This document shows positions 20,963-63,457 of a DNA stretch of 64,000 bases, piece after piece; position 1 is the stretch's first letter, and each line of letters begins with the position of its first letter. Origin of the DNA: Nitratidesulfovibrio termitidis HI1 (GTDB taxonomy: Bacteria; Desulfobacterota; Desulfovibrionia; Desulfovibrionales; Desulfovibrionaceae). A model generated the notes under the pieces. That model made no database searches. It had not been told where the DNA came from and worked only from the letters and a program-made list of their open reading frames with translations. The translations under genes and the position numbers were made by a program. The stretch is taken from contig NZ_KI632512.1 in NCBI RefSeq assembly GCF_000504305.1, forward strand, positions 27,307-91,306. Direction: 5' to 3'.

Positions 20963-21160
20963 CGCAAAATTAGGATTTTTGTTCGCTGGCGAGGAAAACG
21001 AGCCTGCCATGAGGGAGTATACTCTTATCGTATTCGACCGACATGGCAGGCGAAGTTTGACCGCGTTGCGCACGATGTCCGTAGGGCTCGCAAGCTCGCC
21101 CAACGGCCACGCTTCGCGCCCTTCGGGTCGGACGCCAGCGGGCAAAAGGACAATTTTGCG
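20963..21160 (-). repeat. Structured 3'-end repeat, copy 1 (after gap)
   Basis: 198 bp, beginning 6 bp after the gap stop in the gap sense. The outer arms CGCAAAATT and AATTTTGCG pair, as do GCCCGCTGGCG and CGCCAGCGAAC. The core hairpin GCCTGCCATG/CATGGCAGGC encloses the palindrome GAGTATACTC. An extra hairpin module (CCGTTGGGCG to CCCTACGG in the gap sense) lies in the left arm, inverted with respect to copies 3 and 4. It lies between the convergent sdaA and gap genes. See also 27798, 60193 and 63262. Confidence 0.85.
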
Positions 21161-21166
21161 TCAGGC

Positions 21167-22165
21167 CTACAGGTCCTTGCCGACCATGCGCAGCAGCCGC
21201 ACCAACTGGTTGGTGAAGCCCGCTTCGTTGTCGTACCAGATGATCAGCTTCAGCATGGTGCCGCCGATCACGCTGGTGCACAGCGCGTCCACCACGCCGC
21301 CGTAAGTGGAGCCCATGTAGTCCACGGACACCAGCGGCTCTTCGGTGTAGCCCATGTTGCCCAGCAGCGGACCCTCGGCCGCGGCCTTCAGCAGGGCGTT
21401 CACCTCTGCCACGCTGGTGGGGCGTTCCAGTTCGCAGGTCAGGTCCACCAGCGACACGTTGGGGGTGGGCACGCGCACGGCCATGCCGTCCAGCTTGCCC
21501 GCCAGCGCGGGAATGACCAGCGTGGTGGCCTTGGCCGCCCCGGTGGTGGTGGGGATCATGGACAGCGCGGCGGCACGGGCGCGGCGCGGATCCTTGTGCG
21601 AACCGTCCAGGATGCGCTGGCTCATGGTGTACGAGTGCACCGTGGTCATCAGGCCGTGCTTGATGCCGAATGCCTCGTGGATGGTCTTGGCGGCAGGAGC
21701 CAGACAGTTGGTGGTGCACGAGGCGGCGGAGATCACGTCGTGCTTCGCCGGGTCGTAGTCGCCATGGTTCACGCCCATGACCACGGTGACGTCGGCGTCC
21801 TTGGCCGGGGCGCTGATGACGGACTTCTTCGCGCCGCAGGCCAGGTGCTGCGCAAGGCCCGCGCGGTCCTTGATGGTGCCGGTGGTTTCCACCGAGATGT
21901 CGATGCCGAGGTCCTTCCACTTCCAGTCGCCCGCGCGTTCGCGGGTGACGGTGATGCGGCGGCCGTTGACGATGAGCCCGGCGTCGTCGTGGGCCACTTC
22001 GCCCCGGAAGGTGCCATGGCACGAATCGTACTTGAACAGGCGCGCCAGCGAGGCGTTGTCGGCGCGAGCATTGATGGCCACCACGCCAAGGTCGTCGGTA
22101 TCGGCCAGCAGTCTGACGAGGTAGCGGCCAATGCGGCCGAAACCGTTCATCCCAAGCTTGATCAT
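21167..22165 (-). CDS. gap: Glyceraldehyde-3-phosphate dehydrogenase, type I
   Basis: This encodes 332 residues. It oxidises and phosphorylates glyceraldehyde-3-phosphate to 1,3-bisphosphoglycerate with NAD(P). The N-terminal Rossmann motif is MNGFGRIGRYLVR, and ASCTTNCLAP contains the catalytic Cys. Also present are HSYTMSQRILDG and the C-terminal WYDNEAGFTNQ. Ala replaces the more usual Asp in the cofactor region (INARADNASLA), so preference for NAD is not certain. It follows fba by 21 bp in one operon. Structured repeat copy 1 starts 6 bp after its stop. Confidence 0.93.
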   Translation of the reverse strand: MIKLGMNGFGRIGRYLVRLLADTDDLGVVAINARADNASLARLFKYDSCHGTFRGEVAHDDAGLIVNGRRITVTRERAGDWKWKDLGIDISVETTGTIKDRAGLAQHLACGAKKSVISAPAKDADVTVVMGVNHGDYDPAKHDVISAASCTTNCLAPAAKTIHEAFGIKHGLMTTVHSYTMSQRILDGSHKDPRRARAAALSMIPTTTGAAKATTLVIPALAGKLDGMAVRVPTPNVSLVDLTCELERPTSVAEVNALLKAAAEGPLLGNMGYTEEPLVSVDYMGSTYGGVVDALCTSVIGGTMLKLIIWYDNEAGFTNQLVRLLRMVGKDL

Positions 22166-22186
22166 GAGTCCGTTCCCCTGAGACGG

Positions 22187-23110
22187 TTAGATCTTGTTCG
22201 AGCAGCCCAGCACGTTGCGAATCTTGTGCTGCACCATGTTCTTTACGGCGTCGCGCGCGGGCTTCAGGTACGCGCGCGGGTCGAAGTCAGCCGGTTTTTC
22301 CATGAAATGCTTGCGGATGGTGGCGGTCATGGCCAGGCGGATGTCGGTGTCGATGTTGATCTTGCACACGCCGAAGGTGGCCGCCTTGCGCAGCAGGTCC
22401 TCGGGCACGCCCTTGGCGCTGCCCACCTTGCCGCCGTAGGTGTTGGCCATGTCCACGAATTCCTGCGGCACGCTGGAGGCGCCATGCAGCACCAGCGGGT
22501 AGCCGGGCAGCATGCTGGTGATCTTTTCCAGCCGCGCGAAGTCCAGCCTGGCCTCGCCCGTGAATTTGTAGGCCCCGTGGCTGGTGCCGATGGCGATGGC
22601 CAGCGAATCGCAGCCGGTGCGCTTCACGAAGTCCACGGCCTGGTCGGGGTCGGTGTACACCGAATGTTCGGCGGACACTTCGTCCTCCACGCCCGCCAAC
22701 TGGCCCAGTTCCGCTTCCACCCACACGCCGCGCGCGTGGGCGTATTCGACGACCTGCTTCGTGACGGCGATGTTCTCTTCGTACGGCAGATGCGAGCCGT
22801 CGTACATGACCGAGGTGAAGCCGCCGTCGATGCAGTCCTTGCAGATGTTGAAGTCCTGGCCGTGGTCAAGGTGCAGCACCACCGGCAGGTCGGTGTCCAG
22901 CAGGGCCGCCTCGATGAGCTTCACGATGTAGTTCTGCCCGGCGTACTTGCGGGCGCCGGCGGAAACCTGAAGGATCAGTGGGGCCTTTTCTTCACCGGCC
23001 GCCTGCATGATGCCCTGGATGATTTCCATGTTGTTCACGTTGAAGGCGCCGATGGCGTACCCTTCCTTGTAGGCCCGCTCGAACATCTGCTTGGGACCGG
23101 TCAGCGGCAT
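22187..23110 (-). CDS. fba: Fructose-1,6-bisphosphate aldolase, class II
   Basis: This encodes 307 residues from ATG 23110 (GCAGGAGGAATCC upstream). It is the zinc-dependent aldolase for fructose-1,6-bisphosphate, cytoplasmic. Visible are the HLDHGQD metal motif near residue 80, MYDGSHLPYEENI, GTSHGAYKF with another zinc His, and LVLHGASSVP. It is first in the fba-gap operon, a glycolytic and gluconeogenic pair. The frame upstream of 23110 is open for nearly 100 codons but lacks conservation and a ribosome site. Confidence 0.93.
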   Translation of the reverse strand: MPLTGPKQMFERAYKEGYAIGAFNVNNMEIIQGIMQAAGEEKAPLILQVSAGARKYAGQNYIVKLIEAALLDTDLPVVLHLDHGQDFNICKDCIDGGFTSVMYDGSHLPYEENIAVTKQVVEYAHARGVWVEAELGQLAGVEDEVSAEHSVYTDPDQAVDFVKRTGCDSLAIAIGTSHGAYKFTGEARLDFARLEKITSMLPGYPLVLHGASSVPQEFVDMANTYGGKVGSAKGVPEDLLRKAATFGVCKINIDTDIRLAMTATIRKHFMEKPADFDPRAYLKPARDAVKNMVQHKIRNVLGCSNKI

Positions 23111-62461: not shown

Positions 62462-62833
62462 CTACAGGATGGCGCTTTCGCCGTGTTCGTCGGTACGTAC
62501 GCGCATGGCGTCTTCCACGGGACAGATGAAGATCCTGCCGTCGCCGATCTGCTCGGTGCGGTTCACCGTCACTATGGCGTCGATGACGGCGTCCACGCTG
62601 GCACCGGGCACCACCAGCGAAATCATGCGCTTGGGGATGTACTTCATCTTGCGGAACTTGCCCTGCTCCAGCACCCTGGGGTTGATTTCCGTGCCGATCT
62701 CGCCAGCCAGGCCCTGCTGCTTGCCCCGGCCCAGCACGGGCACGGCGGTCAGGCAGGGGAAGCCCAGCTTGTCCAGCGCTTCCTTGGTGGCGCCCATCTT
62801 CTTGGGGCGGATGATGGCGATGATCTCCTTCAT
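62462..62833 (-). CDS. nifI2: PII-family nitrogenase regulator NifI2
   Basis: This encodes 123 residues from ATG 62833. The PII fold is MKEIIAIIRPKKMGATKEALDKLGFPCLTAVPVLGRGKQ, then a long T-loop (GLAGEIGTEINPRVLEQGKFRKMKYIPKRMISLVVPG) of NifI2 type, lacking the uridylylated Tyr. The ending GDGRIFICPVEDAMRVRTDE is complete. With NifI1 it senses 2-oxoglutarate and ATP and blocks dinitrogenase when ammonium is present (known in methanogens). It lies 8 bp from nifI1 and upstream of anfD. Confidence 0.9.
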   Translation of the reverse strand: MKEIIAIIRPKKMGATKEALDKLGFPCLTAVPVLGRGKQQGLAGEIGTEINPRVLEQGKFRKMKYIPKRMISLVVPGASVDAVIDAIVTVNRTEQIGDGRIFICPVEDAMRVRTDEHGESAIL

Positions 62834-62841
62834 GGCGCCAC

Positions 62842-63164
62842 CTACAGGCCCTTCACGCCGGTGCGCACGGTCAGCGCGTCCTCGACGGCGAGACGAACAC
62901 CTTGCCGTCGCCGAAATTGCCCGTGTACGCCTTGCATTTGATGAGCGTGAGGATTTCCTCGACGCTGGCTTCCTCCACCACCATGACCAGCATGGTGCGG
63001 GGCAGTTCGTCGTAGTGCACGCTGCCCACGGTGATGCCCTTCTGCTTGCCGCGCCCGAAGGCGTGGATCATGGTCATGGAGGCGAAACCCGCCTCGGCGA
63101 GGCCGTCGGCCACGGTGTCCGCGGCTTCTGGCCGCACGATCGCCTTGATCATCTTGAGAGCCAT
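62842..63164 (-). pseudogene. nifI1: PII-family regulator NifI1 with an apparent frameshift near the C-terminus
   Basis: ATG 63164 starts MALKMIKAIVRPEAADTVADGLAEAGFASMTMIHAFGRGKQKGITVGSVHYDELPRTMLVMVV, a standard NifI1. In the strict frame it ends after GDGKVFVSPSRTR with a TGA at 62871, 97 residues. One missing base near 62885/62886 would give the family ending SPVEDALTVRTGVKGL with a stop at 62842, which is conserved in PII proteins and in NifI2 beside it. So either a sequencing or assembly error, or a real loss of the last C-terminal strand. Function in complex with NifI2 might be altered. It follows anfH and repeat copy 4. Confidence 0.8.
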
Positions 63165-63261
63165 GGAATCGCTCCTTGCGGTCTGTGTGGGGCGGGTTGC
63201 GCCGGTATGGATTGGTGTGGCGGCTGTCCCTGAGGGCCATTTCCAAGTGGACGCGGCCCCG
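63165..63261 (-). other. Leader between repeat copy 4 and nifI1
   Basis: 97 bp with the ribosome site AGGAGC of nifI1. No second promoter is obvious, so nifI1 to anfK depends on the anfH transcript passing copy 4. Confidence 0.4.
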
Positions 63262-63457
63262 GGGGGTGTTTCTAAATTAGGATTTTCGTTCGTTGGCAAG
63301 GAAAACGAGCCTGTCGTGAGGGAGTATACTCTTGTCGTATTTGACCGAGCCTTAGCCGTTAGGTGAGCTTGCGAACCTTACGGATAAGGACAGCAGAGCT
63401 ATGGCAGGCGAAGTTTGACGTAGCCAACGGGCGAAAGGACTATTTGGAAACAGCCCC
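63262..63457 (-). repeat. Structured 3'-end repeat, copy 4 (between anfH and nifI1)
   Basis: 196 bp in the anfH sense; its first base overlaps the anfH stop. The outer arms GGGGCTGTTTCC/AGAAACACCCCC pair with few mismatches, then AAAT/ATTT, GCCCGTTGGC/GCCAACGAAC and the core GCCTGCCAT/ACGACAGGC, where two core bases are changed on one side only. One hairpin module lies in the apical loop, and GAGTATACTC is present. Confidence 0.85.

Follow-up and report, generated by a model that had tools for sequence, protein, structure and literature searches.

A mobile hairpin element located mainly at stop codons in Nitratidesulfovibrio termitidis and its order

Four copies of a structured repeat lie in a 64,000-nucleotide stretch of the genome of Nitratidesulfovibrio termitidis HI1 (contig NZ_KI632512.1, positions 27,307 to 91,306; hereafter the window), each preceded by the TAG stop codon of a gene. 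The question raised by this locus is whether the repeat is a part of the genes that it follows or an element that arrived behind them. A preliminary description, made from the DNA letters, favored the former and described a selected RNA stem in the 3′ untranslated region (3′ UTR) of four genes, gap, a histone deacetylase (HDAC) gene, anfG, and anfH. The analysis described here identifies the repeat as a family of mobile elements that follow an unusual landing rule, and not as selected structures in the 3′ UTRs of the four genes.

A covariance model (R1) built from 29 diverse copies recovered the four window copies with E values from 1.9e-37 to 2.5e-22, and no further copy was found in the window by this model at E up to 1. 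Pfam matches agree with the host genes as they had been named, namely GAPDH, a histone deacetylase domain protein, AnfG, and a member of the NifH/AnfH family. In line with the view that this is not a described family, an Rfam scan of the window at gathering scores matched four tRNAs only and left the elements unmatched. Among the papers listed for the terms used, no title or start of abstract named such an element in Desulfovibrio. Each window copy folds as one long hairpin that is far more stable than dinucleotide-shuffled sequences (z = -4.40, -4.73, -6.34, and -5.82 for copies 1–4). The copies had been reported to start 0–9 nt after the stops; they do lie directly after them, but the outer arms had been trimmed and in copies 1, 3, and 4 extend to the TAG itself. 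Copy 1, for which CGCAAAATT had been taken as the start, actually begins at the gap stop (TAG, 21167–21169) with the outer arm GGCCTGACGCAAAATT. In copy 2, the strong arm begins 9 nt after the TAG, and weaker pairing continues out to the stop.

The element is built on a single conserved hairpin scaffold, in which the loops are conserved and the arms covary. It measures about 150 nt, or as much as about 250 nt when it contains nested modules, a length too short for a transposase gene, and it has terminal inverted repeats, as miniature inverted-repeat transposable elements (MITEs) do. Read from the stop, an outer arm (P1, approximately 8–20 bp) is followed by a conserved small internal loop, a stem (P2) around CTGGC/GCCAG, an invariant CGTCA, an inner stem (P3), a conserved apical part (GGTC..TAC...GTA..CTCCC), and the return strands. 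Without nested modules the length is nearly fixed, among aligned copies that were picked to lack long inserts (alignment A2, 29 of 41 nonredundant pattern-found copies). The sequences of P1 and P3 differ wholly between copies while complementarity is kept, which bears out the copy-specific, self-complementary outer arms of the preliminary description; the compensated inner-arm change from GCTGG/CCAGC to GTTGG/CCAAC was likewise found to be real. In the 29 diverse copies, 93.6% of pair cells are paired, and the covariation expected of such a stem is present, with two-sided changes in 27 of 35 pairs and with 134 two-sided versus six one-sided changed pair cells. The covariation score of 0.384 compares with 0.141 (SD 0.009) for shuffles and 0.065–0.109 for slid controls. 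Nested hairpin modules of the CCGTAAGG..CCTAACGG type are located at 60250–60300, 60330–60385, 63340–63395, and 21063–21132; they occupy different loop positions in the element, are present in further copies across the genome, and may themselves constitute a mobile unit.

Four copies is the right number for the window and an understatement for the genome. A blastn search with one copy gave 47 matches in the 4.26 Mb own genome and matches in 10 of 39 genomes, these being the own genome, all seven congeners searched, and two others. Use of the covariance model on the genome and its relatives, as the preliminary description had suggested, yielded at least 113 own-genome matches (E up to 0.01), a lower bound because 150 of 1649 candidates were scored. 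Across the order, with at most 14 candidates scored per genome, matches were obtained in 53 of the 199 genomes, which represent 15 of the 43 genera, and the idea of a genus-limited repeat was rejected on this basis. A 29-base core pattern retrieved 52 stretches from a named sequence collection, labeled as Nitratidesulfovibrio, Desulfovibrio sp., a Desulfovibrionaceae bin, and, for two of them, a Betaproteobacteria bin. Spread by phages or plasmids was rejected as well, since copy 2 had no blastn match in phages and plasmids and one 28-base pattern had none in viral contigs. Elsewhere in the order, one locus of another genus (L223, 1501–2268) carries three element matches in a row after one stop, a sign of stacking. 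At another locus (L129), two diverged matches (241–398 and 557–714) have arms unlike those of the main family, the first lying well downstream of the stop of the upstream gene; these matches are perhaps an old lineage.

Whether the copies are fixed parts of their host genes was assessed by comparing sites with those of relatives by eye (loci L007 and L010 taken in part, L008 and L009 left out). At 10 sites (copies 1 and 2, L004, L005, L006, L007, L011, L012, L015, and L017), the orthologous gene of a relative ends at the same codon and is not followed by the element. The copy 1 site is empty in five relatives (G002, G003, G004, G005, and G006); the copy 2 site is empty in G004 and G005 and holds a different version of the element in G006 and G007. 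Congeners also carry different element versions at one and the same stop at L013, L010, L003, L002, and L011. At L017, a newer element adjoins the TAG and separates the stop from an older copy, and at L013 the present element is followed by a decayed one. Target-site duplication, which the preliminary description had regarded as the mark of a simple transposed MITE, was found in part: the TA is duplicated at 5 of the 10 readable sites (copy 1, L007, L011, L012, and L017). Because stops in congeners are empty or differently filled, in some cases with a TA duplication, the element is mobile and not a fixed 3′ UTR structure. At copy 1, the native GC-rich hairpin at 20893–20930 is also present in the relatives with an empty site, so that the element lies before it. 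An intrinsic terminator was rejected as an explanation, since by-eye reading of copies showed no T run after their 3′ arms and copy 1 has this native hairpin, shared by the empty-site relatives, further downstream.

The position of the element was analyzed for 106 of the 113 own-genome matches (two without locus sequence and five spanning less than about 140 nt were left out), with coding frames called by the codon-usage score of open frames. A coding stop near the outermost pair was in sense in 78 cases and in antisense in three, and thus the single orientation relative to the upstream gene seen in the window holds throughout the genome; scatter in random orientation away from stop codons, the pattern that had been named as contrary to an RNA stem, was not observed. 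In 74 of the 106 matches, a coding stop lies at the edge of the outer arm (offset -17 to +13 nt), and these stops comprise 63 TAG, six TAA, and five TGA. The TAG share of 63/74 compares with 25/51 among the predicted genes of the window, where TAG is the commonest stop, next to 17 TGA and nine TAA. For 19 of the other 32 matches, a sense coding stop is located nearby or at most 180 nt upstream, the model having cut the 5′ part of the match; an arm, mostly GGGGCTG-like, is readable directly after the stop in all 19, and in 16 of them the pairing of these bases with the 3′ flank exceeds that of 95% of shuffles. Two more are second copies in tandem.

The excess at stops is large relative to all noncoding or stop TAs in the window (34/360), the observed 74/106 giving p = 8e-51. 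When the null was restricted to TAs in the stop or at most 50 nt downstream, 57% of which are at the stop according to the 51 window genes, the observed ratio was 74/78 (p = 4e-14), or 74/92 (p = 2e-6) when 14 cut-short matches were counted against. In the 17 best loci from other genera, where an open-frame length criterion was used without a codon score, 13 have a sense frame of 80 codons or more whose end falls at the arm or close to it and four have an antisense frame end, with L218, L219, and L222 having both. By region of the own genome, the element strand is three plus and 16 minus at 1–2 Mb and 31 plus and five minus at 3–4 Mb, counts in which gene orientation and a replication-strand effect are not separated.

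The sense orientation and the one reverse transcriptase match in the own genome would suit an RNA-mediated, reverse-transcribed spread of copies that are sense to host transcripts. We consider this extremely improbable, given the TA duplications and given that PF00078 occurs in only two of eight genomes of the genus (own and G007). A toxin-cut stop codon (RelE-like) as the point of entry was dropped, as it would not duplicate the TA.

The nature of the outer arms was addressed by a scan for inverted repeats with TA on their flanks at 31 loci that surround IS5-family transposase genes. Candidates were obtained at 18 of these loci, and 11 G-initial ones were compared with the arms; L357, L362, L373, L374, L377, and L378 were not compared, the candidates of L362 and L373 looking spurious, and L352 is the same element as L369. 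The ends GGGTCTGTTTCCAAATTA and GGGCCTGTCTCCAAATCA are similar to the element arm GGGGCTGTTTCCAAATT, the end GATAGTGTCGTCACGAGA is similar to the arms GATGGTGTCGCCACGAG in the own genome and GGCAGTGTCGTCACGAG in another genus (L231), and the end GGGCTTGTTCACAATAGT is similar to the arms GGGCCTGTTGACACTAT and GGGCGTGTTCACACTAC (L215 and L228). In a comparison of the 11 inverted repeats with 69 of the 74 stop-edge elements (TGA stops left out), 19 of the 69 own-genome arms match an IS5-family end at 12 or more of 16 bases, compared with 71 of 2000 control TAG sites. The outer arms resemble the TA-flanked, G-initial inverted repeats at the ends of IS5-family elements from the same bacterial family. 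We take them as IS5-type ends and the differences between the arms of different copies as largely reflecting different end types with later drift, as is probably also the case for the 50 arms below the threshold.

The own genome contains one IS5-family element (L352, at approximately 3541.6–3542.5 kb), which has two frames, 24-nt inverted repeats, and a TA on both sides. It is the genome's only PF01609 match, and both of its pieces match the NCBIfam IS5 family model. From their two-frame layout, we take the IS5-family elements considered here to be probably IS427-like. In 10 of 11 IS5/IS427-group rows considered from Table 2 in PMC3281130, a 2-bp duplication is given.

Taken together, the element is inserted at pre-existing stops, in sense orientation and with a TA duplication where this is still readable, and we think it quite probable that it represents a short, non-autonomous mobile family of the Desulfovibrio order, that is, a MITE moved at TA by IS5-family transposases and tolerated at rebuilt stops. 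An IS5-family transposase acting in trans would insert the element into TA dinucleotides; because G is the first base of these inverted repeats, a TAA or TAG stop that received an insertion at its TA would be rebuilt as TAG (TA + G), with the protein unchanged. Several transposases could serve one cargo by exchange of the outer arms, a proposal that would account for ends that are copy-specific yet self-complementary. Sense copies at stop codons would be retained since they do no harm to the protein and, once transcribed, form the beginning of the 3′ UTR, where some of them may have been put to use. More tentatively, and with less confidence than we place in the MITE, the family may form an order-wide class of hairpins that land at stops in one direction and exchange their outer ends to ride different IS5-family transposases, the inner hairpin, strictly kept in Watson–Crick form, being the conserved and perhaps the active part, as a single-stranded DNA substrate during mobility or as 3′ UTR RNA in resident copies.

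Several observations weigh against an IS5-moved MITE. No inverted-repeat candidate was obtained at 13 of the 31 IS5-family loci, L378 was left out of the arm comparison despite being G-initial, and the ends at L357, L374, and L377 are TCC-initial, TTA-flanked, and unlike any element arm. Moreover, 50 of the 69 own-genome arms fall below 12 of 16 bases, and the control TAG sites were drawn from loci that themselves contain elements. No NF033580 transposase was found in the three congeners G004, G005, and G006, so that the present mobilizer is a putative one. The other five of the 10 readable sites show no clean TA duplication, and 11 of the 106 matches are not at a stop, being real exceptions by the method used. 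In addition, resident copies are more conserved than expected of neutral relics: they diverge at 37/1553 positions (2.4%), versus 43/356 third codon positions (12.1%), in 10 of 11 chosen pairs (one lacked a readable stop) that are biased to recognizable copies. The downstream flanks of these copies diverge at 134/2544 positions (5.3%). Finally, harm avoidance alone explains neither the excess of sense over antisense nor that of stops over nearby TAs, and selection on the transcript, or targeting, must be added to it.

In the targeting alternative, the insertion machinery itself would prefer coding-strand stops, for example through an exposed non-template strand or a host factor of termination. 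The excess over the 57% null, including its conservative form, the single orientation, and the newer copies at the stop with older ones behind (L017 and L013) are consistent with this idea. Against it, among the 11 IS5-family copies with inverted repeats, inspected by eye, only L365, L376, and perhaps L369 appear to be inserted in a natural stop, in mixed orientation, and L366 interrupts a gene; we regard targeting as somewhat unlikely.

Selection on the transcript corresponds to the selected RNA stem of the preliminary description. In this reading, a cis-acting 3′ UTR RNA would fold directly after the ribosome that terminates and would determine how stable the mRNA is or how intercistronic expression is set, anfH relative to the genes after it being an example. 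Covariation far above shuffles, the 78 sense versus three antisense copies, the slow divergence of resident copies, and the position of copy 4 between anfH and two P-II genes would all fit such a role, as would the orientation-dependent effect on upstream transcripts attributed to ERIC in the relevant part of PMC2229807. The pairs themselves tell otherwise. Among 5002 pair cells from 85 own-genome and 63 genus matches, 4722 are Watson–Crick, 50 are G–T, 88 are A–C, and 142 are other combinations. In a transcript under selection, G–U pairs are expected well above A–C, and a small tRNA control of 96 pairs (eight of nine tRNAs, one being removed by the pairing filter) gave five G–T and no A–C. 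Between orthologous resident copies, single changes from Watson–Crick pairs led to 11 G–T, 11 A–C, and eight other combinations, with one compensated double change, and divergence in 12 chosen orthologue pairs was the same in paired (33/1319, 2.5%) and unpaired positions (15/625, 2.4%). An overlapping set of 24 orthologue pairs, the selection of which (more than 80% identical, of similar length, and motif-found) favors conserved copies, gave 25 G–T and 27 A–C changes. RNA-level selection is doubtful because G–U pairs do not exceed A–C pairs. Since the elements are moreover gained and lost between congeners, have outer arms resembling IS5-family ends, and show no T run after the 3′ arm in the copies that were read, the selected RNA stem of the host genes was not supported, and we judge a cis-acting RNA unlikely. 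The divergence of 2.4% versus 12.1% also weakens a pure neutral-relic view. The resident copies may thus be constrained, although not in the way of a wobble-tolerant RNA helix, and their slow evolution keeps some functional reading alive.

Covariation nearly devoid of wobble could also arise if the hairpin were itself the substrate of a single-strand or fold-back mobility, one arm being copied from the other so that both change jointly without wobble intermediates. The few one-sided changes in the 29 diverse copies and the wobble count, no higher than that of A–C mismatches, are in line with this mechanism. Subfamily inheritance could, however, yield the same pattern, the TA duplication is indicative of double-stranded ends processed by a DDE transposase, and the own genome has no match to the Y1 (RAYT) transposase PF01797, which makes a fold-back origin decidedly unlikely. 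With no match to the IS630-type DDE_3 transposase PF13358 in the own genome either, mobilizers of the repetitive extragenic palindrome (REP)/RAYT and IS630 kinds were both rejected.

An IS5-moved MITE invites comparison with known small repeats. ERIC is an imperfect palindrome with internal insertions. ERIC/IRU appears in the consulted part of PMC2229807 as a 127 bp repeat that is cotranscribed and has an orientation-dependent effect on upstream mRNA, a description from which the stop-flush position and the end exchange seen here are absent. RUP (associated with IS630-Spn1) is portrayed in that same part as short and non-autonomous, with insertion-sequence-like ends and targets that contain TA, and Nezha, in a section of PMC3049150, as a MITE moved by an insertion sequence. 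As far as those accounts go, the present element is alike in being short and non-autonomous with insertion-sequence-like ends; it is unlike RUP in that its ends are of the IS5-family type, not IS630, and unlike both in being flush with stops in one orientation and in having an order-wide interior scaffold, covarying stems, and several end types per interior. In the part of PMC3733652 considered here, REPs are palindromes near gene 3′ ends, GTAG REPs often supply TAG stops, CGTC REPs have no dedicated transposase, and Desulfovibrio is not mentioned. The invariant CGTCA before the inner stem is reminiscent of the CGTC-tagged REPs, but the present element differs from REPs in its nested hairpin, which measures about 150 nt, in its IS5-like ends flanked by TA, and in the lack of a RAYT in the own genome. 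The pneumococcal BOX elements, as outlined in the section of PMC3049150 considered here, are transcribed modular hairpins with variable inner modules and inverted-repeat ends. The present element shares the modular hairpin, variable inner modules, and inverted-repeat ends, while its inner modules are hairpins nested in the loops of one scaffold and its stop-flush position is absent from that outline of BOX.

Oriented landing mainly at stop codons would be an uncommon choice of target for a mobile element of this size. Congeners with no element, one element, or different elements at the same gene provide natural experiments on a hairpin at distance zero after a stop, which bear on translation termination, on mRNA decay, and on how one cargo is served by several transposases. 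The family also cautions against equating strong covariation among repeats with selection at the RNA level; a wobble count combined with an orthologue comparison can distinguish covariation with and without such selection.

Table 1. Element copies, outer arms, host genes, and a native hairpin in the window (window coordinates)
Feature	Position	Strand	Remarks
Copy 1	20954..21167	-	Extra internal hairpin module of ~70 nt; starts with the G that completes the gap TAG
TA at copy 1 3′ end	20952..20953	-	Probably duplicated from the TA of the gap stop (21168-21169); by-eye comparison with empty sites
Copy 2	27788..27934	+	Compact element after the TAG of the histone deacetylase domain gene; 3′ limit approximate
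Copy 3	60190..60435	-	Two nested hairpin modules; after the anfG TAG; 3′ limit approximate
Copy 4	63263..63457	-	One nested hairpin module; after the anfH TAG; 3′ limit approximate
Copy 4 5′ outer arm, GGGGCTGTTTCCAAAT	63442..63457	-	15/16 bases equal to the TA-flanked inverted repeat of IS5-family element L380
Copy 4 3′ outer arm	63263..63279	-	Complement of the copy 4 5′ arm
Host gene gap (GAPDH)	21167..22165	-	PF02800, PF00044; stop TAG
Host gene, histone deacetylase domain	26469..27788	+	PF00850; stop TAG
Host gene anfG	60435..60800	-	PF03139; stop TAG
Host gene anfH (NifH/AnfH family)	63457..64000	-	PF00142; stop TAG; gene truncated by the window end
Native GC-rich hairpin between gap and the convergent gene	20893..20930	.	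By eye

The features of the window are collected in Table 1. Two of the four copies belong to an alternative nitrogenase cluster (60435–64000) consisting of anfH, the two P-II genes, a nitrogenase component 1 gene, and anfG, with one element inside the cluster after anfH and another after anfG. The four tRNA genes of the window form an array on the minus strand at 14483–14857.

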